Positions 2,716 to 13,104 of a DNA stretch of 64,000 nt are shown piece after piece; the stretch's first letter is position 1; each line of letters opens with the position of its first letter. The translations under genes and the position numbers were made by a program. The notes below the pieces were generated by a model, which saw only the letters and a program-made list of their open reading frames with translations, was not told the DNA's origin and made no database searches. Where the stretch lies: assembly GCF_000759445.1 (NCBI RefSeq), contig NZ_JRMB01000002.1, positions 682,001 through 746,000 of the forward strand. Direction: 5' to 3'. Source of the stretch: Pseudomonas lutea (GTDB lineage Bacteria > Pseudomonadota > Gammaproteobacteria > Pseudomonadales > Pseudomonadaceae).

Positions 2716-3318
2716 ATGTGGCAGAGCTACCTCAACGGCCTGTTGATTTCCCTGGGCCTGATCATGGCCATCGGAACACAAAACGCTTATGTGCTCGCGC
2801 AGAGCCTGCGTCGGGAACACCATTTATCCGTAGCCCTGCTGTGCATCGTCTGCGATGTGGTGCTGGTCGCGGCGGGCGTGTTCGGGCTGGCCAATGTGCT
2901 TGCCCATAGCCCTACCCTGCTGGCTATCGCGCGCTGGGGCGGAGTGATCTTTCTGCTGTGGTACGGCGCCATGGCGCTGCGCCGTGCAGTATCGCCGCAG
3001 AGCCTTGCGCAAGGGGACGCCGACGGCCAGCGCTCACGTCGCGCCGTCTTGCTGACTGCGCTGGCGGTGACCCTGCTGAACCCGCACGTCTACCTCGATA
3101 CCGTATTGCTGGTCGGCTCGCTCGGCGCGCAGCAAACGGTGCCCGGCGCCTATGTCGCCGGTGCGGCCAGCGCTTCGGTATTGTGGTTCTCGACTCTGGC
3201 CATCGGAGCCGCCTGGCTGGCACCCTGGCTCGCGCGTCCGACGACATGGCGCCTGCTGGACCTGATGGTGGCGGTGATGATGTTCGGCGTGGCAGTGCAG
3301 TTGATCAGAACAGCGTGA
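2716..3318 (+). CDS. argO: LysE-family amino-acid exporter (ArgO-like)
   Basis: 200-residue polytopic membrane protein of the LysE superfamily with about six hydrophobic segments: residues 5-25, 38-60, 66-86, 108-130, 145-165 and 178-197. The N-terminus carries the family signature GLIMAIGTQNAYVLAQSL (G-x-Q-N-A), and NPHVYLDTVLLVGS in the middle is the second conserved block seen in ArgO/LysE proteins. Members export basic amino acids such as arginine, lysine and toxic analogues. Its neighbour argP is the regulator known to drive argO in enterics, making the pairing functionally coherent. Start ATG at 2716 lies directly before the first membrane segment. No sequence defects seen. Confidence 0.88.
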   Translation: MWQSYLNGLLISLGLIMAIGTQNAYVLAQSLRREHHLSVALLCIVCDVVLVAAGVFGLANVLAHSPTLLAIARWGGVIFLLWYGAMALRRAVSPQSLAQGDADGQRSRRAVLLTALAVTLLNPHVYLDTVLLVGSLGAQQTVPGAYVAGAASASVLWFSTLAIGAAWLAPWLARPTTWRLLDLMVAVMMFGVAVQLIRTA

Positions 3319-4030
3319 AAACTCATGCGTGCCGCCTCTGTACGGGGCGCGCTACCTGCTCTGTAGCATCTCCTCACGCGTTCGCCAGCAAGCCGGCTCC
3401 TACAGATGGTCGTCATTCTGGAGATTTCGGCATCTACTCCAATCTGTAGGAGCCGGCTTGCTGGCGAATGGGGTGTCACAGCCGATGTAAACGTCGCTGA
3501 CACACCCCAATCGCGGGCAAGCGCGCGCCTACATTTTGCGTCGGCGCCAACACTCCCGTCAGCTGGGCATACTCCAATCTGCAGGAGCCGGCTTGCTGGC
3601 GAACGCGTTCTGACAGCCGCCGTAAATTTAGCTGACACACCCAAATCGCGGGCAAGCGCGCCTACATTTTGCGTCAGCCTCAACGCTCCCGTCCGCTGGG
3701 CATACTCCAATCTGTAGGAGCCGGCTTGCTGGCGAATGGTGTGTCACAGCCGATGTAAACGTTGCTGGACACACCCCAATCGCGGGCAAGCGCGCCTACA
3801 TTTTGCGTCAATCTGGATATCTGGGCAGATCAGCTATGGATATCTTGGCCTGTCCGCGCAATGCTCTGGAACCTCTATCCCCTACAGTTGTTGCGTGGTT
3901 AAGGTTCGGGGCCGGTGCTATGATCCAGCCCCTGCGCCGCAAAGAGTACAAACTCGCCGGCGTGAGTTCTGTCTGGCCGCCCGTGATCGGCCTTGCGCAA
4001 ACCGCAACTGACCTGATTAGGAGAATTACC
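3319..4030. repeat. REP-rich intergenic region with a triplicated 133-135 bp unit
   Basis: A 712-bp non-coding gap before sodB. It holds four copies of the REP core: 3382-3403 on the minus strand, and 3446-3467, 3581-3602 and 3714-3735 on the plus strand. Each plus-strand copy is followed about 45-50 bp later by a second inverted element, TCGCGGGCAAGCGCGCCTAC, at 3511-3533, 3646-3666 and 3780-3800. The composite unit (ACTCCAATCTGTAGGAGCC, ending CTACATTTTGCGTC) is therefore repeated in tandem three times with periods of 135 and 133 bp. The short frames that run through it are repeat-encoded and not genes. The sodB promoter lies in its last 120 bp. Confidence 0.9.
3916..3924 (+). promoter_or_regulatory. 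Candidate extended -10 promoter of sodB
   Basis: TGCTATGAT matches an extended -10 element (TGn plus TATGAT) about 106 bp before the sodB ATG. No good -35 box is visible at 17 bp, which is compatible with an extended -10 promoter. Transcription would leave a leader of roughly 100 nt. This is motif reading only. Confidence 0.4.
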
Positions 4031-4627
4031 ATGGCTTTCGAATTGCCTCCGCTGCCGTATCCGCATGATGCCCTGGCACCGCACATCTCCAAGGAAACTC
4101 TGGAATACCACCACGACAAGCACCACAACACCTATGTCGTGAACCTGAACAACCTGGTGCCTGGCACCGAGTTCGAAGGCAAGACGCTGGAAGAGATCGT
4201 CAAAACTTCCTCGGGCGGTATCTTCAACAACGCCGCTCAGGTCTGGAACCACACCTTCTACTGGAACTGCCTGGCGCCAAACGCCGGCGGCCAACCGACC
4301 GGCGCTCTGGCTGACGCCATCAACGCTGCGTTCGGTTCCTTCGACAAGTTCAAGGAAGAGTTCAGCAAGACTTCCATCGGCACCTTCGGCTCCGGCTGGG
4401 GCTGGCTGGTCAAGAAAGCTGATGGCTCCCTGGCGCTGGCCAGCACCATCGGCGCAGGCAACCCGATCACCAGCGGCGACACTCCGCTGCTGACCTGCGA
4501 TGTCTGGGAGCACGCTTACTACATTGACTACCGTAACCTGCGTCCCAAGTACGTCGAGGCGTTCTGGAACCTGGTCAACTGGAAGTTCGTCGCCGAGCAA
4601 TTCGAAGGCAAAAGCTTCACTGCCTGA
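4031..4627 (+). CDS. sodB: Superoxide dismutase [Fe]
   Basis: 198-residue cytoplasmic Fe-superoxide dismutase converting superoxide to oxygen and hydrogen peroxide. The four metal ligands are all present at standard positions: His27 (EYHHDKHH), His74 (WNHTFYW), Asp157 and His161 ([13 protein letters not shown]). The length and the [10 protein letters not shown] stretch are typical of iron rather than manganese enzymes. The ATG at 4031 is preceded by TTAGGAGAATTACC, a strong ribosome site; the longer in-frame extension back to 3803 has no family similarity and runs into the REP region. A rho-independent terminator follows at 4651. The next gene is bifA, an order I recall as conserved in Pseudomonas. 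Confidence 0.97.
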
Positions 4628-4650
4628 TGAATGCTTGAATGCTCGAATAA

Positions 4651-4678
4651 AAAAGCCCGGCGCGTCCGGGTTTTTTTT
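4651..4678 (+). terminator. Rho-independent terminator after sodB
   Basis: AAAAGCCCGG-CGCGT-CCGGG followed by eight T residues, starting 24 bp after the sodB stop. The stem is short and GC-rich with a poly-U tail. The rest of the 304-bp gap to bifA (4679-4931) shows no gene or repeat I can identify and presumably contains the bifA promoter. Confidence 0.85.
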
Positions 4679-4931
4679 CGCCTTCTGTTTGTCGTTTATG
4701 TATTGTCTGGAAGCGATAGCGGACTAATATCAGTTGCGAGCTGATTGGACCTTCCGGGCTCAAGTTTTACCCGCACGCGACCGACACAGTACGGATAGCC
4801 TTAATGGCCGACCTGTCACCGCTTTCCCGATTGATGGGGTTTTGTGCAACCCGCGCGCTCAACCCGAATGTCTGCATTGCCATTGATTGCACGCAGTCAG
4901 CCCGCTGTCAGCATGGATAAAGGATGGCCAT

Positions 4932-6983
4932 TTGAAGCTGGAACTCAAACACAGCTTGTCGGTGAAGCTGCTTCGCGTTGTGCTGCTTTCGGCGCTGATC
5001 GTGGGGGTCGTGCTCAGTTGCGCGCAGATCGTCTACGACGCCTACAAAACGCGCCAGGCCGTTGCCACGGACGCGGCACGTATTCTGGACATGTTCCGCG
5101 ACCCCTCGACCCAGGCCGTCTATAGCCTGGACCGCGAGATGGGCATGCAGGTGATTGAAGGCCTGTTTCAGGACAAGGCCGTGCGCATGGCGTCCATCGG
5201 TCATCCGAACGAGACCTTGCTCGCTGAAAAATCCCGCGACCTTGAAGTTACCCCTACCCGCTGGCTGACCGATCTGATCCTGGGCCAGGAACGCAGTTTC
5301 ACCACGCAGCTGGTCGGTCGCAGCCCCTACAGCGAGTATTACGGTGACCTGCGCATCACCCTGGATACGGCCACTTATGGTGAAGGCTTTCTCACCAACT
5401 CCATGATCATTTTCATCTCCGGCGTCTTGCGCGCGCTGACGCTGGGGCTGGTGCTGTATCTGGTTTATCACTGGCTGCTGACCAAACCGCTGTCCAACAT
5501 TATCGAGCACCTGACGCGCATCAACCCCGACCGTCCGAGCGAGCATCAACTGCCCTTGCTCAAGGGCCATGAGAAGAACGAGCTGGGGGTCTGGGTCAAC
5601 ACCGCCAACCAGCTATTGGCGTCTATCCAGCGCAATACCACCCTGCGACACGAGGCTGAATCAAGCTTGTTGCGGATGGCTCAATACGACTTCCTCACCG
5701 GCCTGCCCAACCGGCTGCAATTGCAAAAGCAACTGGACAAGATCCTCGTCGACGCGGGCAAAGTGCAGCATCGGGTCGCGGTGCTGTGTGTCGGGCTGGA
5801 CGACTTCAAAGGCATCAACGAGCAGTTCAGTTATCAGGCCGGCGATCAGCTCCTGCTGGCGCTGGCCGATCGGCTGCGCAGTCACAGCGGACGTTTGGGG
5901 GCACTGGCACGTCTGGGTGGTGACCAGTTCGCGCTGGTCCAGGCCGACATCGAGCAGCCGTACGAAGCAGCGGAGTTGGCGCAAAACATTCTTGACGATC
6001 TCGAAGCGCCTTTCGCCCTCGACCAACAAGAGATTCGTCTGCGCGCCACCATCGGCATTACGCTGTTCCCGGAAGACGGTGACAGCACCGAGAAGCTGCT
6101 GCAGAAAGCCGAACAGACCATGACCCTGGCCAAGACCCGCTCGCGCAATCGCTACCAGTTCTACATCGCCAGCGTTGACAGCGAAATGCGGCGCCGGCGT
6201 GAACTGGAAAAAGACCTGCGTGAAGCATTGGCCCGCGACCAGTTTCATCTGGTCTATCAGCCGCAGATCAGCTATCGCGATCACCGGGTGGTGGGCGTGG
6301 AGGCGTTGATTCGCTGGATTCATCCGGAACACGGCTTCGTGCCACCCGACCAGTTCATTCCGCTGGCAGAGCAGAACGGCAGCATCATCGCCATCGGCGA
6401 GTGGGTGCTGGACCAGGCATGCAAGCAACTGCGGGAATGGCACGATCAGGGTTTCAGCGACCTGCGCATGGCGGTCAATCTGTCTACCGTGCAACTGCAC
6501 CATGCCGAGCTGCCGCGGGTGGTGAATAACCTTCTGCAGATCTACCGCCTGCCCTCTCGCAGCCTTGAGCTTGAAGTCACCGAAACCGGCCTGATGGAAG
6601 ACATCACGACCGCCGCCCAGCACCTGCTGAGCTTGCGTCGCTCCGGGGCGCTGATCGCCATCGATGACTTCGGTACCGGTTACTCATCCTTGAGCTACCT
6701 CAAAAGCCTGCCGCTGGACAAAATCAAGATCGACAAAAGCTTCGTACAGGATTTGCTCGACGACGATGACGACGCGACGATTGTGCGCGCCATCATCCAG
6801 CTCGGCAAAAGCCTTGGCATGCAGGTCATCGCCGAAGGTGTGGAAACGGCCGAGCAAGAGGCTTACATCATTTCCGAGGGCTGCCACGAAGGTCAGGGTT
6901 ACTTCTATAGCAAGCCCCTGCCGGCGCGGGAGCTACTGGTTTACCTCAAGCAGGCCGAACGCACGCACAGCGAAGCGTTGTAA
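4932..6983 (+). CDS. bifA: c-di-GMP phosphodiesterase BifA (degenerate GGDEF plus EAL)
   Basis: About 683 residues from the TTG at 4932, chosen because an AAAGGA ribosome site lies 8 bp upstream and the product then begins KLELKHSLSVKLLR before the first membrane helix (about 10-30). A second membrane helix is near 155-185, giving a periplasmic loop, then a HAMP-like linker, a GGDEF domain and a C-terminal EAL domain. The GGDEF signature is degenerate, GGDQF at 329-333, as in P. aeruginosa BifA, whereas EALIRW at 457-462 and the later DDFGTGYSSL loop are intact. The protein is therefore expected to degrade c-di-GMP and promote swarming over biofilm formation. A further TTG at 4887 is in frame, so the N-terminus is uncertain by 15 residues. 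Confidence 0.92.
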   Translation: MKLELKHSLSVKLLRVVLLSALIVGVVLSCAQIVYDAYKTRQAVATDAARILDMFRDPSTQAVYSLDREMGMQVIEGLFQDKAVRMASIGHPNETLLAEKSRDLEVTPTRWLTDLILGQERSFTTQLVGRSPYSEYYGDLRITLDTATYGEGFLTNSMIIFISGVLRALTLGLVLYLVYHWLLTKPLSNIIEHLTRINPDRPSEHQLPLLKGHEKNELGVWVNTANQLLASIQRNTTLRHEAESSLLRMAQYDFLTGLPNRLQLQKQLDKILVDAGKVQHRVAVLCVGLDDFKGINEQFSYQAGDQLLLALADRLRSHSGRLGALARLGGDQFALVQADIEQPYEAAELAQNILDDLEAPFALDQQEIRLRATIGITLFPEDGDSTEKLLQKAEQTMTLAKTRSRNRYQFYIASVDSEMRRRRELEKDLREALARDQFHLVYQPQISYRDHRVVGVEALIRWIHPEHGFVPPDQFIPLAEQNGSIIAIGEWVLDQACKQLREWHDQGFSDLRMAVNLSTVQLHHAELPRVVNNLLQIYRLPSRSLELEVTETGLMEDITTAAQHLLSLRRSGALIAIDDFGTGYSSLSYLKSLPLDKIKIDKSFVQDLLDDDDDATIVRAIIQLGKSLGMQVIAEGVETAEQEAYIISEGCHEGQGYFYSKPLPARELLVYLKQAERTHSEAL

Positions 6984-7112
6984 CGAGTTTTTGCCATTCA
7001 GTGCCAGGACCGCGCCATTGCAGGTCCTGCCCGCCCCGCGGCATTCCCTCACATTCCTGAAACAGCTTGAAATATCTCCCCTGCCTTCTCCGGGCAAACG
7101 GCCTTTACACAG

Positions 7113-7131
7113 AATGCAAATCCTTCGCATT
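7113..7131 (+). promoter_or_regulatory. Putative Fur box upstream of icmP
   Basis: The 19-mer AATGCAAATCCTTCGCATT is a dyad (AATGC...GCATT) resembling Pseudomonas Fur sites. It lies 62 bp before the icmP ATG. A 19-mer identical at 15 positions lies 60 bp before the di-haem oxidoreductase gene at 9487. The shared spacing and sequence argue for common iron control. Confidence 0.6.
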
Positions 7132-7193
7132 ATGGCGCAGCTTTTTTTTGGCGTTCGCCACCGCTCACACCCTTCTAGACGCAGGATTCCTTC

Positions 7194-8543
7194 ATGATTC
7201 GTATGCCCTTGGCAACCGCAAGTCTGCTGGCTGTCGCTATCGCTTTGGCCGGTTGTGATCAAGGCAAGGACAAGCCAGCCGCCACAGCCCCTGCACCGGC
7301 TCCCGCCGCCACCGCACCGGCAGCATCTGCATCCGCTGCAGCGCCAGCCCAGACCAACGAAGCCGCGACCAAAGCGGTGGTCGCCAATTACGCCAATGTC
7401 GTGTTCGCCGTCTTCAGCGACGCCCAGTCCACTGCCAAAAACCTCAGCTCGGCAGTCGATGCATTTCTCGCCACCCCCAACGACCAAACCCTGAAGGCAG
7501 CGCGCGCGGCCTGGGTGGCGGCGCGCGTGCCTTACATGCAGAGCGAAGTGTTTCGTTTCGGCAATACCATCATCGATGACTGGGAAGGCCAGGTTAACGC
7601 CTGGCCCCTGGACGAAGGCCTGATCGACTACGTCGCCAAGGATTATCAGCATGCGTTGGGTAACCCGGGGGCAACTGCCAACATCATCGCCAATACGTCG
7701 GTGCAGGTAGGTGAAGACAAAGTCGACGTCACTGAAATCACTCCGGAAAAACTCGCCAGCCTGAATGAGCTCGGCGGTGCGGAAGCGAACGTGGCCACCG
7801 GTTATCACGCCATTGAGTTCCTTCTGTGGGGCCAGGATGTGCACGGTACCGGTCCGGGCGCCGGTGAACGGCCCGCCAGCGACTACGTTGAAGGCCCGGG
7901 TGGCACCGGTGGCCACAACGACCGCCGCCGCGCGTATTTGAAGGCCGCCACCGACCTGCTGGTCAGCGACCTGGATGAAATGGTCAACAACTGGAAGCCG
8001 GGCGTGGCCGATAACTACCGCGCCACGCTGGAAGCAGAGCCCGCCGAAAGCGGCCTGCGCAAGATGCTGTTCGGCATGGGCAGCCTGTCACTCGGCGAGC
8101 TGGCCGGTGAGCGCATGAAGGTGGCACTGGAGGCCAACTCCAGCGAGGACGAACACGATTGCTTCAGCGATAACACCCACAACTCGCACTTCTACAACGG
8201 GCTGGGTATCCGCAACGTTTATCTGGGCGAATACACACGCGTCGACGGCAGCAAAGTGACCGGTCCAAGCCTGTCCTCGCTGGTGGCCAAGGCAGACGCT
8301 GCAACCGACCAGACCGTACGCGCCGACCTCGATGCAACCCAGGCCAAACTGCAGGTCATCGTTGACCACGCCAACAAGGGCGAACACTTCGATCAACTCA
8401 TCGCGGCCGGTAACACGGCGGGCAACCAGGTGGTGCGTGACGCCATTGCAGCGCTGGTCAAGCAAACCGGTGCCATCGAGCAAGCCGCCGGCAAGCTCGG
8501 GATCACCGACTTGAACCCGGACAACGCCGACCACGCGTTCTGA
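7194..8543 (+). CDS. icmP: Imelysin (M75) family lipoprotein, IcmP-like
   Basis: 449-residue exported lipoprotein. The signal peptide ends in the lipobox LAGC (Cys20) and is followed by an Ala/Pro-rich linker to about residue 60. The imelysin domain follows and contains the GxHxxE motif as GYHAIEFLLWGQD with His205 and Glu208, a putative metal site. The P. aeruginosa homologue has been named insulin-cleaving metalloproteinase, but family members (IrpA, the EfeO C-terminal domain) are mostly linked to iron acquisition, so proteolysis should not be assumed. A Fur-box-like dyad upstream supports iron regulation. The ATG at 7194 places the signal peptide correctly. A strong terminator follows, so it is probably monocistronic. 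Confidence 0.88.
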   Translation: MIRMPLATASLLAVAIALAGCDQGKDKPAATAPAPAPAATAPAASASAAAPAQTNEAATKAVVANYANVVFAVFSDAQSTAKNLSSAVDAFLATPNDQTLKAARAAWVAARVPYMQSEVFRFGNTIIDDWEGQVNAWPLDEGLIDYVAKDYQHALGNPGATANIIANTSVQVGEDKVDVTEITPEKLASLNELGGAEANVATGYHAIEFLLWGQDVHGTGPGAGERPASDYVEGPGGTGGHNDRRRAYLKAATDLLVSDLDEMVNNWKPGVADNYRATLEAEPAESGLRKMLFGMGSLSLGELAGERMKVALEANSSEDEHDCFSDNTHNSHFYNGLGIRNVYLGEYTRVDGSKVTGPSLSSLVAKADAATDQTVRADLDATQAKLQVIVDHANKGEHFDQLIAAGNTAGNQVVRDAIAALVKQTGAIEQAAGKLGITDLNPDNADHAF

Positions 8544-8602
8544 TTCGCTGGCGACCGTCGGGGCGCATGTCTCCGGCGGCGCTCCGGCCGTTTTCCACCC
8601 TT

Positions 8603-8633
8603 ATGCCGACCCGTCCACGGGTCGGCATTTTTT
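8603..8633 (+). terminator. Strong rho-independent terminator after icmP
   Basis: ATGCCGACCCGT-CC-ACGGGTCGGCAT, a perfect 12-bp stem with a two-base apex, followed by a T run (8628-8633). It lies 60 bp downstream of the icmP stop and separates icmP from the AP2-like gene. Confidence 0.9.
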
Positions 8634-8798
8634 CGTCAATCGAAGGCTGAATTCTTCGCTCTACCAACCGCGTCCGAGGACCGGTCTGTAAGATTTGTAG
8701 GGCATTTCCTGTTCGCTCCGTGTCGGATTGAACACGCCTGACCTGCCGCCGATCATGCGCACTTCCTTGACCCCACCCTATCCAGGAGGAGACAGAAA

Positions 8799-9338
8799 GT
8801 GCCCAAGAGAAACAACAACAGGCGCCGCGTCAGTAAGCTCAAAGCCAACGATTACGGTATTCATCTGCTGGTTGGCGTCAAGGGCCCCCGTGCCTGGAAG
8901 GTGACGATCTACCGCGACGGCAAAACCTTCAACAGGCTGTTTTCGTTCTCCCGCTACGGTGGCCGCGATCCGGCGCGACAAGCCGCGGACGCGTGCCGCG
9001 ATCAGTTGCTGCTGGCACATCTGCCCAAGCTCAGCCGCGATATTCGCCAACGCATCATCGCCACCAACACCAGCGGCTATCCCGGTGTTCATTACCGTTG
9101 CTACACCGGCATCGCCTACTGGGTTGCGCGAACCACGTTGCGCAACGGCAGCAGCGTCACCAAATCGTTCAGGGTGGAGCACTACGGCTACGACCGGGCC
9201 AAGGAACTGGCCATACGCGAACGCGAGCGCCAGCTCGACGGCATCGGCGATTACCGCTCGTTCAAGGTTGTACAGGGCGAGCGGCGCTTGATGCAGCTGC
9301 TCGTGGAAAACCCGGCGCTGGAGATCGCAGGCGCCTAG
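8799..9338 (+). CDS. AP2-like DNA-binding-fold protein with two repeats
   Basis: 179 residues, basic, no signal peptide. Two successive copies of an AP2/ERF-like three-strand-plus-helix unit can be read: YGIHLLVGVKGPRAWKVTIY to about residue 70, and GYPGVHYRCYTGIAYWVART to about residue 150. Both have the W/Y-containing strands and an Ala/Arg-rich closing helix (ARQAADACRDQL; RAKELAIRERERQL). Bacterial AP2 domains bind DNA, often within homing endonucleases, but no nuclease domain is attached here. The GTG start at 8799 is fixed by AGGAGGAG 9 bp upstream. It stands alone between icmP (terminated) and the Fur-box-linked operon, and its function is unknown. It could regulate the neighbouring genes, but nothing in the sequence proves that. 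Confidence 0.72.
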   Translation: MPKRNNNRRRVSKLKANDYGIHLLVGVKGPRAWKVTIYRDGKTFNRLFSFSRYGGRDPARQAADACRDQLLLAHLPKLSRDIRQRIIATNTSGYPGVHYRCYTGIAYWVARTTLRNGSSVTKSFRVEHYGYDRAKELAIRERERQLDGIGDYRSFKVVQGERRLMQLLVENPALEIAGA

Positions 9339-9407
9339 TTCGACACGTCAGGGGCACGTCAGGGCTGGCGGATGAATTGGTAACAACACGTTACGAGAGG
9401 GCCTACA

Positions 9408-9426
9408 AATGCTAATCCCTCTTATT
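9408..9426 (+). promoter_or_regulatory. Putative Fur box upstream of the di-haem/imelysin/DUF1513 operon
   Basis: AATGCTAATCCCTCTTATT agrees at 15 of 19 positions with the site before icmP and contains the AATGnTAATC half typical of Fur boxes. It ends 60 bp before the start codon at 9487. Confidence 0.55.
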
Positions 9427-9486
9427 CATAAAACTCGGGACTGTTAAGCTTGCTCGCCCCGATTTCCAGCCCTTTGCAGGATCTGT

Positions 9487-10914
9487 ATGACTGCGCGGTT
9501 CCGTCCATCGTTACTCCTGCCGATGGCACTCGCCATGAGCGGGTGCGATGACGCCCCGCGTTTCACCGCCGCCGAGCCGGGCGAATCCCGCTCGGGCGGC
9601 GCCGCCACGGTCATCAAGAGCGATCGCAACGCGTTCTCTCTGCCCTCGGCCAACCTGTCGCCAGCACGCCGGCTGGACTTCAGCGTCGGCAACAGCTTTT
9701 TCCGTAATCCCTGGGTGATTGCCCCGTCCACCACCACTGCCCGGGACGGCCTGGGGCCGCTTTTCAACACCAATGCCTGCCAGAATTGCCACATCAAGGA
9801 CGGCCGCGGCCACCCGCCTGAAGCTGGGGCCGACAATGCCGTGTCGATGCTGGTGCGTCTGTCCATCCCCGACGAGCCGGCGTTTGCAGAACACATCAAA
9901 CGACTGGGCCTGACACCGGAGCCCGTGTATGGCAAGCAGCTCCAGGACATGGCGATTCCCGGGGTGACGCCCGAGGGCAAAGTGCGGGTCGATTACGACT
10001 CGATGACCGTACACTTTCGCGATGGCACCCCGGTGCATTTGCGTCGCCCTACCCTGCAAATCACCCAGACCGGATACGGCGCCATGCACCCCCAGACCCG
10101 CGCTTCGGCGCGCATCGCCCCGCCGATGATCGGCCTGGGGCTTCTGGAAGCGATCCCTCAAGCGGCGATTCTGGCCAACGCCAACCCCAACGATGAACAG
10201 GGCACCGGGATCACCGGCAAACCCAATTGGGTCTGGGACGACGCTCAACAGAAAACTGTCCTTGGGCGCTTTGGCTGGAAAGCCTCACAGCCTGGCATAA
10301 AGCAACAAAATGCCCACGCGCTGGCCGGGGACATGGGCCTCACCTCCAGCCTGATGCCCGTCGACGACTGTACGCCGTCGCAGAGTGCATGCCTCGCCGC
10401 GCCCAATGGCAACGGCCCCAACGGGGAGCCGGAGGTCAGCGACAACATTCTGAGACTGATCACCTTCTACACCCGCAATCTCGGTGTTCCGGCGCGCCGT
10501 GATGTCGGCGACCCGCAGGTGTTGTCGGGCAAGAACCTGTTCTTCAAGGCGGGTTGCCAGCAATGCCATACACCGCAATTCACCACCTCCGCCGATGCCG
10601 CGGAGCCTGAGCTGGCGAACCAGGTTATCCGTCCCTATACCGACCTGCTGCTGCACGACATGGGCGAAGGACTGGCCGACAACCTGAGCGAGTTTCAGGC
10701 CAGCGGTCAACAGTGGCGTACCCCGCCCTTATGGGGGATCGGCCTGACGCAAACCGTCAGCGGGCACACGCAGTTCCTCCACGACGGCCGCGCCCGCAAC
10801 CTGATGGAAGCCGTGTTGTGGCATGGCGGCGAAGCGCTGCCGGCGCAGCGTCAGGTGCTCGCGTTCGACGCAGATCAACGTGCGGCGCTGCTGGCGTTTT
10901 TGAATTCTCTCTAA
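9487..10914 (+). CDS. Di-haem oxidoreductase lipoprotein (DUF1111, thiol oxidoreductase-like)
   Basis: 475-residue exported c-type cytochrome. The N-terminus is a lipoprotein signal with lipobox AMSGC. Two haem-attachment motifs are present, CQNCH at residues 98-102 and CQQCH at 357-361, the arrangement of the di-haem cytochrome c peroxidase-like DUF1111 family. In between lies a long insert typical of this family (RPTLQITQTGYGAM and following). It should act in the periplasm, membrane-anchored, as a redox or peroxidase-like enzyme; substrate unknown. It is the first gene of an apparent operon, with the imelysin gene starting 26 bp after its stop and DUF1513 nearly touching that gene. A Fur-like box precedes it. 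ATG 9487 follows AGGATCTGT. Confidence 0.87.
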   Translation: MTARFRPSLLLPMALAMSGCDDAPRFTAAEPGESRSGGAATVIKSDRNAFSLPSANLSPARRLDFSVGNSFFRNPWVIAPSTTTARDGLGPLFNTNACQNCHIKDGRGHPPEAGADNAVSMLVRLSIPDEPAFAEHIKRLGLTPEPVYGKQLQDMAIPGVTPEGKVRVDYDSMTVHFRDGTPVHLRRPTLQITQTGYGAMHPQTRASARIAPPMIGLGLLEAIPQAAILANANPNDEQGTGITGKPNWVWDDAQQKTVLGRFGWKASQPGIKQQNAHALAGDMGLTSSLMPVDDCTPSQSACLAAPNGNGPNGEPEVSDNILRLITFYTRNLGVPARRDVGDPQVLSGKNLFFKAGCQQCHTPQFTTSADAAEPELANQVIRPYTDLLLHDMGEGLADNLSEFQASGQQWRTPPLWGIGLTQTVSGHTQFLHDGRARNLMEAVLWHGGEALPAQRQVLAFDADQRAALLAFLNSL

Positions 10915-10940
10915 CATTTTTTGAAGATAAGGAGTCGGGC

Positions 10941-12005
10941 ATGTTCCGCCCCAAGCTGTTGCTCACCAGTCTCGCCGCCCTGGCGTTGGGCGCGTGTGCG
11001 CCCTCGGACCCGCAAGCGGTAACCTCGGCCGCCATCGCCAGTCAGGTCATCCTGCCGACCTACAGCCGCTGGGTTGATGCCGACCGCCAGTTGGCGGTCA
11101 GCGCGCTGGCCTACTGCCAGGGCAACGCCGGGCTGGACACCGCACGCGCCGACTTCCTCCACGCGCAGAAAGCCTGGGCTGAGCTGCAGCCGTTGCTGAT
11201 CGGTCCGCTGGCTGAAGGCAATCGCGCCTGGCAGATTCAGTTCTGGCCCGACAAGAAGAACCTCGTTGGTCGTCAGGTCGAGCAACTGCTGACCGCACAG
11301 CCGCAGATCAGCGCCGACGCCCTGGCCAAATCCAGTGTGGTGGTGCAAGGCCTGTCAGCGTACGAGTACATCCTGTTCGACGCCGGCATCGACATGGCCA
11401 GCGCTGAACAGAAGGCGCGCTACTGCCCGTTGCTGGTGGCCATCGGCGAGCATCAGAAGGCGCTGGCCGAAAACATCCTGAGCAGCTGGAACAGCAACGA
11501 CGGCATGCTGGCCCAGTTAAGCAAATTCCCCAATCAGCGCTACGCCGATTCCCATGAAGCCATTGCCGAGTTGCTGCGGGTGCAAGTGACGGCGCTCGAC
11601 TCCCTGAAGAAAAAACTTGGCACGCCGCTGGGCCGTAATACCAAGGGCGTGCCGCAGCCGTTTCAGGCCGAAGCCTGGCGCAGCAAGTCCTCCCTTGGCA
11701 GCCTGCAGGCAAGCCTGGCGAGTGCGCAGACGGTCTGGGCCGGTGTCGACAACAAAGGGCTACGCGGTCTGCTGCCCAAGGGACAAAAACCATTGGCCGA
11801 CAAAATCGACGCCGCCTACGCCGAAAGCAATCGGCAGCTGGCCGCGCTGAAACCGCCACTGGGCGACCTGCTGGCGACGGAAGAAGGCCGCCAGCAGCTC
11901 AATGCTTTCTACGACAGCCTCAACGTGGTCCACCGCCTACACGAAGGCGAACTGGCCAAGGCGTTGGGCATCCAACTGGGTTTCAACGCCAACGATGGTG
12001 ACTGA
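10941..12005 (+). CDS. Second imelysin-family lipoprotein with a degenerate GxHxxE motif
   Basis: 354 residues. The ATG at 10941 follows AAGGAGTCGGGC and yields a lipoprotein signal with lipobox LGAC (Cys15); the upstream in-frame extension overlaps the previous gene and is rejected. The imelysin fold covers most of the chain. At the place of GxHxxE it reads GLSAYE (137-142), so the metal-binding His is replaced by Ser while Glu is kept. This suggests a structural or non-catalytic partner of the di-haem protein rather than a protease. It is cotranscribed with the genes on both sides (26-bp gap before, 1 bp after). Presumably membrane-anchored in the periplasm. Confidence 0.85.
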   Translation: MFRPKLLLTSLAALALGACAPSDPQAVTSAAIASQVILPTYSRWVDADRQLAVSALAYCQGNAGLDTARADFLHAQKAWAELQPLLIGPLAEGNRAWQIQFWPDKKNLVGRQVEQLLTAQPQISADALAKSSVVVQGLSAYEYILFDAGIDMASAEQKARYCPLLVAIGEHQKALAENILSSWNSNDGMLAQLSKFPNQRYADSHEAIAELLRVQVTALDSLKKKLGTPLGRNTKGVPQPFQAEAWRSKSSLGSLQASLASAQTVWAGVDNKGLRGLLPKGQKPLADKIDAAYAESNRQLAALKPPLGDLLATEEGRQQLNAFYDSLNVVHRLHEGELAKALGIQLGFNANDGD

Positions 12006-12006
12006 T

Positions 12007-13104
12007 ATGTTGCGACGTCAGGCTCTGGGTCTCGGCAGCCTTGTGCTCAGCGCCGTCACGTTTGGCGGCTGGACGCTGTTCTCGAAAAAAGGTGAAAGCC
12101 CGCTGTTGCTGTCCGCCCGGGATGACGGCAATGGTCAGCACTTCGCCGTGGGCTACCGCGTCGACGGCACGCAAGTGTTCGCCACTGCGGTTGCCCAGCG
12201 CTGTCACGACATCATCAACCACCCTCACCTGCCCATCGCTTTGTTTGTCGCGCGCAGGCCCGGGACTGAAAGCTATCTGATCGACCTGCGCAACGGCAGC
12301 TTGCTGCAGACAATCACGTCGCCCGCGCACCGACATTTCTACGGCCATGCGGTTATTCACAAGGAAGGCGAGTGGCTGTACGCCACTGAAAACGACACGA
12401 CCGACCCGGGGCGCGGCCTGTTGGGTGTATACCGATTCGTCAACGAGCGCTTGCAACGCACCGGGGAGATAACCACCCACGGCGTAGGCCCGCATCAGGT
12501 CTCATGGATGCCGGACGGTGAGACGCTGGCGATCGCCAACGGCGGCATCCGCACCGAGGCTGAAAGCCGTGTCGAGATGAATCTCGATGCCATGGAACCG
12601 AGCCTGGTATTGATGCAGCGCGACGGCACGCTGCTGAGCAAAGAGACGCTGTCGCAGCCCATGAACAGCGTGCGCCACATGGCGATTGCCAGCGATGGGA
12701 CTATTGTGGCGGGCCAGCAATTCATGGGGCCTTCCCACGAAACCGCCGAACTGCTCGCCATCAAGCGGCCGGGGCAACCGTTCCAGCCGTTCCCGGTGGC
12801 TGAAGCCCAGTTACAGGCCATGGCGCATTACACCGCCAGCGTTGCCATTCATGACGCGCTGCGGCTGGTGGCACTGACCGCGCCAAGAGGCAACCGCTTC
12901 TTTATCTGGGACCTGGACAGCGGCGCGCTGAAACTGGATGCGCCGCTGCCGGACTGCGCTGGCGTGGGCGCGGTGGCGGACGGCTTCGTGGTGACTTCGG
13001 GCCAGGGACGCTGCCGTTTCTACGATTGCCGCGAGACCGCGCTGGTCGCCAAGCCGCTGGAGCTCCCGGCGGGGTTGTGGGACAACCATTTGCATCTGGT
13101 GTGA
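12007..13104 (+). CDS. DUF1513 protein, probable Tat-exported beta-propeller
   Basis: 365 residues starting at ATG 12007, one base after the imelysin stop, which implies translational coupling. The N-terminus LRRQALGLGSLVLSA has a twin-arginine and a hydrophobic stretch consistent with a Tat signal. The rest shows repeated blade-like strands (LLSARDDGNGQHFAVGYRV, GHAVIHKEGEWLYATENDT, GPHQVSWMPDGETLAIANGG), as in seven-bladed propellers. DUF1513 proteins occur beside imelysin and DUF1111 genes, and the role is not established. Tat export of a folded, possibly cofactor-bearing protein would parallel EfeB of the EfeUOB system, but no haem or copper motif is obvious here. Confidence 0.82.
   Translation: MLRRQALGLGSLVLSAVTFGGWTLFSKKGESPLLLSARDDGNGQHFAVGYRVDGTQVFATAVAQRCHDIINHPHLPIALFVARRPGTESYLIDLRNGSLLQTITSPAHRHFYGHAVIHKEGEWLYATENDTTDPGRGLLGVYRFVNERLQRTGEITTHGVGPHQVSWMPDGETLAIANGGIRTEAESRVEMNLDAMEPSLVLMQRDGTLLSKETLSQPMNSVRHMAIASDGTIVAGQQFMGPSHETAELLAIKRPGQPFQPFPVAEAQLQAMAHYTASVAIHDALRLVALTAPRGNRFFIWDLDSGALKLDAPLPDCAGVGAVADGFVVTSGQGRCRFYDCRETALVAKPLELPAGLWDNHLHLV

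Follow-up and report, generated by a model that had tools for sequence, protein, structure and literature searches.

Iron uptake has been linked to imelysins since 2011 or earlier, with the mechanism missing. Two described systems lie close to the one discussed here. In EfeUOB/M (P. syringae EfeM; available part of PMC9174327), M75-domain proteins occur together with an exported haem enzyme. In P. aeruginosa, PA4370-PA4373 form a Fur-regulated imelysin operon without EfeU, according to the part of Xu et al. 2011 (PMC3143127) available to us; the operon holds two imelysins and a DUF1111 di-haem protein. A similar cluster is found at positions 7113-13104 of the window, a 64,000-nucleotide stretch of a Pseudomonas-like genome; judged by DUF1513, two P. 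graminis strains (94% identity) are its closest named relatives. Its genes are icmP, an open reading frame (ORF) with an AP2 domain, DHOR/DUF1111, imelysin 2 and DUF1513, all on the + strand.

The cluster can be read as a Fur-repressed envelope module for capturing iron and altering its redox state ahead of inner-membrane passage; we give this a probability of roughly one half. Computed support comes from iron-linked control sites, the linkage of DHOR, imelysin 2 and DUF1513, a predicted CCP/MauG-type enzyme and its modelled propeller partner. The module is most likely EfeUO-like in its logic and outside EfeUOB in its membership. The features of the region are as follows.

7104-7133, + strand: sigma-70-like promoter TTTACA-18-CATTAT, overlapping Fur-like dyad 1 (one found, 1.2 expected by chance)
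7113-7131, no strand: Fur-like dyad 1, AATGCAAATCCTTCGCATT, 13 of 18 consensus positions
7194-8543, + strand: icmP, imelysin (M75) lipoprotein with a GxHxxE motif (PF09375, E=1.5e-90)
8603-8628, + strand: intrinsic terminator-like stem-loop after icmP, 11-bp stem and T tail
8799-9338, + strand: AP2-domain ORF, apparent lineage insertion outside the conserved module (PF00847)
9408-9426, no strand: Fur-like dyad 2, AATGCTAATCCCTCTTATT, 13 of 18 consensus positions
9487-10914, + strand: DHOR (DUF1111), di-haem c-type protein, probable lipoprotein, CCP/MauG fold by model (PF06537, E=2e-96)
10941-12005, + strand: imelysin 2, IPPA/PA4372 type with GxxxxE and no motif His, probable lipoprotein (PF09375)
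12007-13104, + strand: DUF1513, RR-type (Tat-like) start, seven-bladed propeller by model, five conserved His (PF07433, E=5.5e-114)

The first-pass annotation had called the cluster uncharacterised. In the sense of undescribed this cannot be kept, as both the P. aeruginosa operon and its missing EfeU are already in Xu et al. 2011. Going by that paper's description, the same set (icmP, a DUF1111 protein, a GxxxxE imelysin, no EfeU) occurs in the window, where it differs by the inserted AP2 gene. The family of the fourth gene is unnamed in the portion of the text at hand, and neither DUF1513 nor a propeller is named in that portion of the main text. The paper calls PA4371 an EfeB homologue, whereas EfeB in the window genome is a DyP peroxidase to which DHOR, a PF06537 protein, has no significant BLASTP similarity (E=0.35). 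The cluster type is already published. New points are the tight gene linkage, FTR1 independence, a hybrid operon, the predicted bis-His enzyme and the histidine-ring propeller.

Iron-linked control was scored with a 19-bp Fur consensus of 18 specified positions; a similar Vibrio form is printed in the available part of PMC4324432. Two Fur-like dyads had been placed before icmP and DHOR, sharing 15 of 19 bases and ending 62 and 60 bp before the start codons, and all of this was verified in the sequence (spacers 7132-7193 and 9427-9486). Each has five mismatches to the consensus, and both would be weak Fur boxes. Four sites scoring at least 13 occur in the window (the dyads and two others, at 1172 and 2226), against 0.2 per 64 kb in Markov shuffles. 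When the 120-bp upstream regions were shuffled (2000 times each), a score of 13 was reached in 0.15% and 0.35%. Five places in the whole genome have at most three mismatches to the consensus, and a reversed control has none.

Among Pseudomonas loci, whose close relatedness makes them non-independent, the highest-scoring site within 200 bp upstream reaches at least 13 for icmP in 66 of 73 cases and for DHOR in 83 of 112. Imelysin 2 reaches this threshold in 2 of 112 loci, DUF1513 in 0 of 112 and an RND adaptor gene in 0 of 81. In a more diverse set, a site at p<=0.01 by shuffling was found in 17 of 38 icmP upstream regions (300 bp), comprising all four from the window's own family and 13 of 34 from outside it. 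Such sites precede DHOR in 2 of 36 of the diverse loci, imelysin 2 in 0 of 35 and DUF1513 in 0 of 33. This may mean that the operon is often under a single box ahead of icmP outside Pseudomonas, and that Pseudomonas controls the two units separately.

Expression data come from the literature, each source available in part. Counterparts in Vibrionaceae have iron-linked expression (PMC4324432, PMC7600106), a transcriptome table has three V. fischeri counterparts changing in concert (PMC5466423), and a P. fluorescens imelysin-like gene, either icmP or an Efe protein, stands at 4.14 among iron-uptake genes under epigallocatechin gallate (EGCG; PMC5435343). The dyads could also belong to another regulator, leaving the cluster outside iron regulation in this genome. 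Both boxes are weak, as that explanation would have it, but they are conserved across loci, better boxes (14-15 of 18) precede icmP in some distant genomes, and the Vibrionaceae counterparts are induced in an iron-linked manner; we regard it as highly improbable. Fur control, proposed in the first-pass annotation, is probable given the conservation of both dyads in other Pseudomonas. The proposed link to iron is supported, and a reading in terms of iron is likely.

Linkage was studied in a phylum sample of 249 genomes, the window genome included, and 14 control genomes, with the Pfam cut-off applied to DUF1513 and DHOR. DUF1513 exceeds the cut-off in 45 of the 249 (46 matches, 27 genera, 15 families), and the search of the controls gave no match. 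DHOR and imelysin matches are present in all 45, and the three genes thus co-occur outside the lineage, the comparison that had been suggested as a check. The order DHOR-imelysin-DUF1513 is kept in 45 of the 46 matches, the exception being a second, lone DUF1513 in one genome (G088). A further imelysin lies upstream within 8 kb in 42 matches, one of them with two DHOR matches; three DUF1513 genomes have their icmP-class imelysin elsewhere. In the window the gaps are 26 bp (DHOR to imelysin 2) and 1 bp (imelysin 2 to DUF1513), and a single transcript is therefore likely for the three genes. Two variants were seen: a tandem pair of DHOR genes within the module (L198, 8232-11438), and a DUF1513 match for which the search reported one in-frame TAG (G106:C1:960340-961248).

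Within Pseudomonas the trio is complete in every locus of two sets (32 and 80 loci); icmP adjoins it in 22 and 52 of these, and some of the stretches were short. DUF1513 occurs in 35 of 36 genomes of the genus sample; the remaining one (G023) has an EfeO/EfeM-scoring imelysin pair only. A sample of relatives gave a match in 41 of 57 genomes. Beyond the genus the linkage is less tidy there: among six such genomes three have the full order, in L038 DUF1513 precedes imelysin 2, the stretch read of L039 lacks DHOR, and in L041 DUF1513 stands alone. This lone gene (L041, 9647-10804) has neither DHOR nor imelysin near it in the 19 kb read and retains four of the five conserved histidines. It may be a paralogue with another role.

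No FTR1-family permease was found within the cluster by Pfam, in agreement with the first-pass annotation. The only FTR1 match of the window genome lies on another contig (C1), in a separate and complete EfeU-EfeO-EfeB-EfeM operon (L005, 7692-12030). Of the 45 DUF1513 genomes, 34 are without an FTR1 match, and the remaining 11 carry theirs on a different contig or hundreds of kilobases from the cluster. EfeU therefore cannot be the general outlet, and the module may be an iron route outside the EfeUOB studies. Both imelysins have the M75 domain only, and the genome's own EfeO carries a cupredoxin domain as well. Compared with EfeUOB/M, the cluster lacks FTR1, the cupredoxin domain and the DyP peroxidase, and has in addition a propeller and a CCP/MauG-type enzyme. 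With no FTR1, no cupredoxin-M75 EfeO and no DyP EfeB, membership in EfeUOB was rejected.

A hybrid arrangement is found in L178, from a genome without DUF1513 (G215). Cupredoxin, FTR1, imelysin and DHOR genes stand there in a row on one strand, followed by an imelysin-2-like gene, a further gene and CCP_MauG; the whole operon spans 3090-10524 (- strand). The gene after DHOR is imelysin-2-like only by a profile made for this analysis and by its homologue in L177 (M75 in Pfam), and is unlisted in the Pfam genome search. By its gene content, L178 is an EfeUO-like operon with DHOR in EfeB's place. It is a single case, with the gene order to be expected if an FTR1 permease can serve as a partner of imelysin and DHOR. 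The EfeOB-like character suggested earlier is upheld by it as far as the EfeO-like relation goes, and fails as to EfeUOB membership. The haem scavenging that had also been suggested gained no positive evidence, and no test aimed at it was made. The cluster might also serve EfeUOB-type ferrous uptake proper, feeding an FTR1 permease located elsewhere, such as the EfeU of the EfeUOBM operon. EfeU is indeed present in the window genome, and L178 unites FTR1 and cupredoxin with imelysin and DHOR, but the missing or distant FTR1 of the module genomes makes this very unlikely.

The two imelysins are of different kinds. IcmP has a solved relative in 7xrx (E=1.8e-198) and carries the GxHxxE motif that defines the ICMP/LruB family. 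Its Gly203, His205 and Glu208 are invariant in 44 of 44 aligned sequences, and many acidic residues are conserved. Imelysin 2 (solved relative 3pf0, E=1.1e-18) has GLSAYE at this place and matches the GxxxxE without His printed for the IPPA/PA4372 family; of 42 aligned sequences, 38 keep Gly137 and 41 keep Glu142, and few residues are invariant. A profile comparison relates the two families to each other (E=3.4e-21). Export signals, judged by sequence motif, were predicted for all four products other than AP2, as had been proposed. IcmP has a lipobox, DHOR (MSGC) and imelysin 2 (LGAC) have near-lipobox cysteines outside the strict pattern, and DUF1513 has a Tat-like RR start.

DHOR has CxxCH at residues 98 and 357. 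Two such haem sites and a di-haem fold characterize the bCCP/MauG superfamily, and DHOR has the sites in its sequence and the fold in its model; a CCP/MauG-type enzyme is predicted. The second haem is probably bis-His in the model, like that of hydrazine synthase gamma. MauG and the MauG-like copper-homeostasis protein 6e1c share with DHOR the fold, the two CxxCH and a gene position beside possible protein substrates; modification of a partner by DHOR is putative. If DHOR, like MauG or MbnH, oxidised residues of an imelysin or of DUF1513 into a metal-binding or redox site, the module would serve protein maturation. DHOR differs, however, from its CCP_MauG neighbours in having His446 where they have Tyr. 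In a study cited in PMC6405878 that, by its title, replaced the axial Tyr294 of MauG with His, the tyrosine is said to be important for bis-Fe(IV), which weighs against maturation. The match is to the superfamily as a whole. DHOR exceeds the Pfam cut-off in 60 genomes, 15 of them without DUF1513; leaving out four with short matches only, 11 have long matches, five of these beside an imelysin and six with none nearby. A maturation role appears distinctly unlikely.

DHOR could instead be an envelope di-haem peroxidase that defends against peroxide when iron is low, while the imelysins hold loose iron against Fenton chemistry. Pfam names DHOR a putative peroxidase, the modelled fold is that of bacterial CCP, and a CCP_MauG-type gene also occurs in 6 of the 45 loci (checked with Pfam for two). 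It may be argued, however, that a haem enzyme is costly when iron is scarce, and that a CCP needs no propeller and two imelysins. Peroxide defence is accordingly thought improbable, about as much so as maturation.

DUF1513 was modelled as a seven-bladed propeller. Five histidines, His67, His114, His163, His224 and His361, are invariant in 42 aligned sequences and lie in five inner strands of the model. Propellers of the 6-phosphogluconolactonase type and of N2O reductase also have seven blades, and lactonases too have inner-strand histidines; the two clear lactonases of the window genome have about three by eye, against five of seven strands in DUF1513. No profile relation between DUF1513 and NosZ was found, with a NosZ set that was flawed. 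No paper in the literature collection searched names DUF1513.

A structural parallel is hydrazine synthase (5c2v; available parts of PMC12607021 and PMC12758564), in which a seven-bladed propeller (beta) is paired with a CCP/MauG-type di-haem subunit (gamma) having one bis-His haem. It heads the VIA list for DHOR and is one of several entries tied at the top for DUF1513. The cluster differs in that only beta- and gamma-like folds were seen, with no alpha subunit, and the sequence relation is not significant (profile E=0.037). A bolder proposal is that DHOR and DUF1513 form a complex like hydrazine synthase gamma/beta with an axial five-His metal or catalytic site, an imelysin-fed, FTR1-independent envelope iron oxidoreductase of a new class across Pseudomonadota. 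We consider this speculative and unlikely.

For the iron-capturing, redox-active module favoured above, the following mechanism can be proposed. IcmP would hold iron at a site formed by GxHxxE and carboxylates. DHOR would pass electrons, in either direction, between a periplasmic cytochrome and the iron held by icmP, or its chelate, using two haems, a bis-His one in the C-terminal part and a catalytic one. DUF1513 may dock to DHOR as the hydrazine synthase propeller does to its di-haem subunit, and a separate metal or catalytic site may lie in its histidine ring. Imelysin 2, its metal motif lost, could be a scaffold. The iron would then enter through the importer available in each host, in most cases one other than FTR1, and FTR1 in at least one lineage. 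Together, the four-gene context, the predicted bis-His CCP-type enzyme and the five-His propeller allow tests on named residues.

The AP2 gene was rejected as a member of the module. A tblastn match to it is present in 4 of 156 loci: the window genome (L048), L053 and the two P. graminis loci (L086, L087). The tally of locus genes gives it in three only, owing to an ORF floor of 200 aa. Its position between icmP and DHOR is best described as a recent lineage-specific insertion, judging from these matches. Terminator-like matches in the region number four, against 6.9 by shuffling; among them, the stem-loop after icmP stands with its 11-bp stem.

Upstream of icmP, the window holds an ORF resembling superoxide dismutase, recognised by eye (3803-4627), and a GGDEF-EAL protein (4887-6983); of the 32 genus loci, 22 keep a close homologue of the latter near the module. 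When ORFs of the 45 loci were clustered in search of a common permease or receptor, families in at least four loci, apart from the module itself, included GGDEF/EAL (14), an ABC-ATPase-like family (10), the CCP_MauG type (6) and two antisense-like ORF clusters (11 and 5), with others in 4-5 loci. ORF calling in GC-rich DNA selects ORFs on the wrong strand, and a neighbouring gene can therefore be missed. Of the recurrent flanking families, only CCP_MauG was judged related to the module. No TonB receptor was found among 19 chosen and five further flanking proteins checked with Pfam.

In L191 (9004-13135, genome G297), PepSY_TM, a 147-aa protein, a 445-aa protein and ApbE lie between icmP and DHOR. 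The first three are on the opposite strand; the 147-aa and 445-aa proteins have no Pfam match, and the latter looks barrel-like by eye. This insert is perhaps a flavin-dependent reductase joined to the module. Finally, a gene of the fatty-acid-hydroxylase family follows the imelysin-2-like gene in L177 (6585-7571, checked with Pfam) and in L178 (4246-5160, assigned by ORF cluster).

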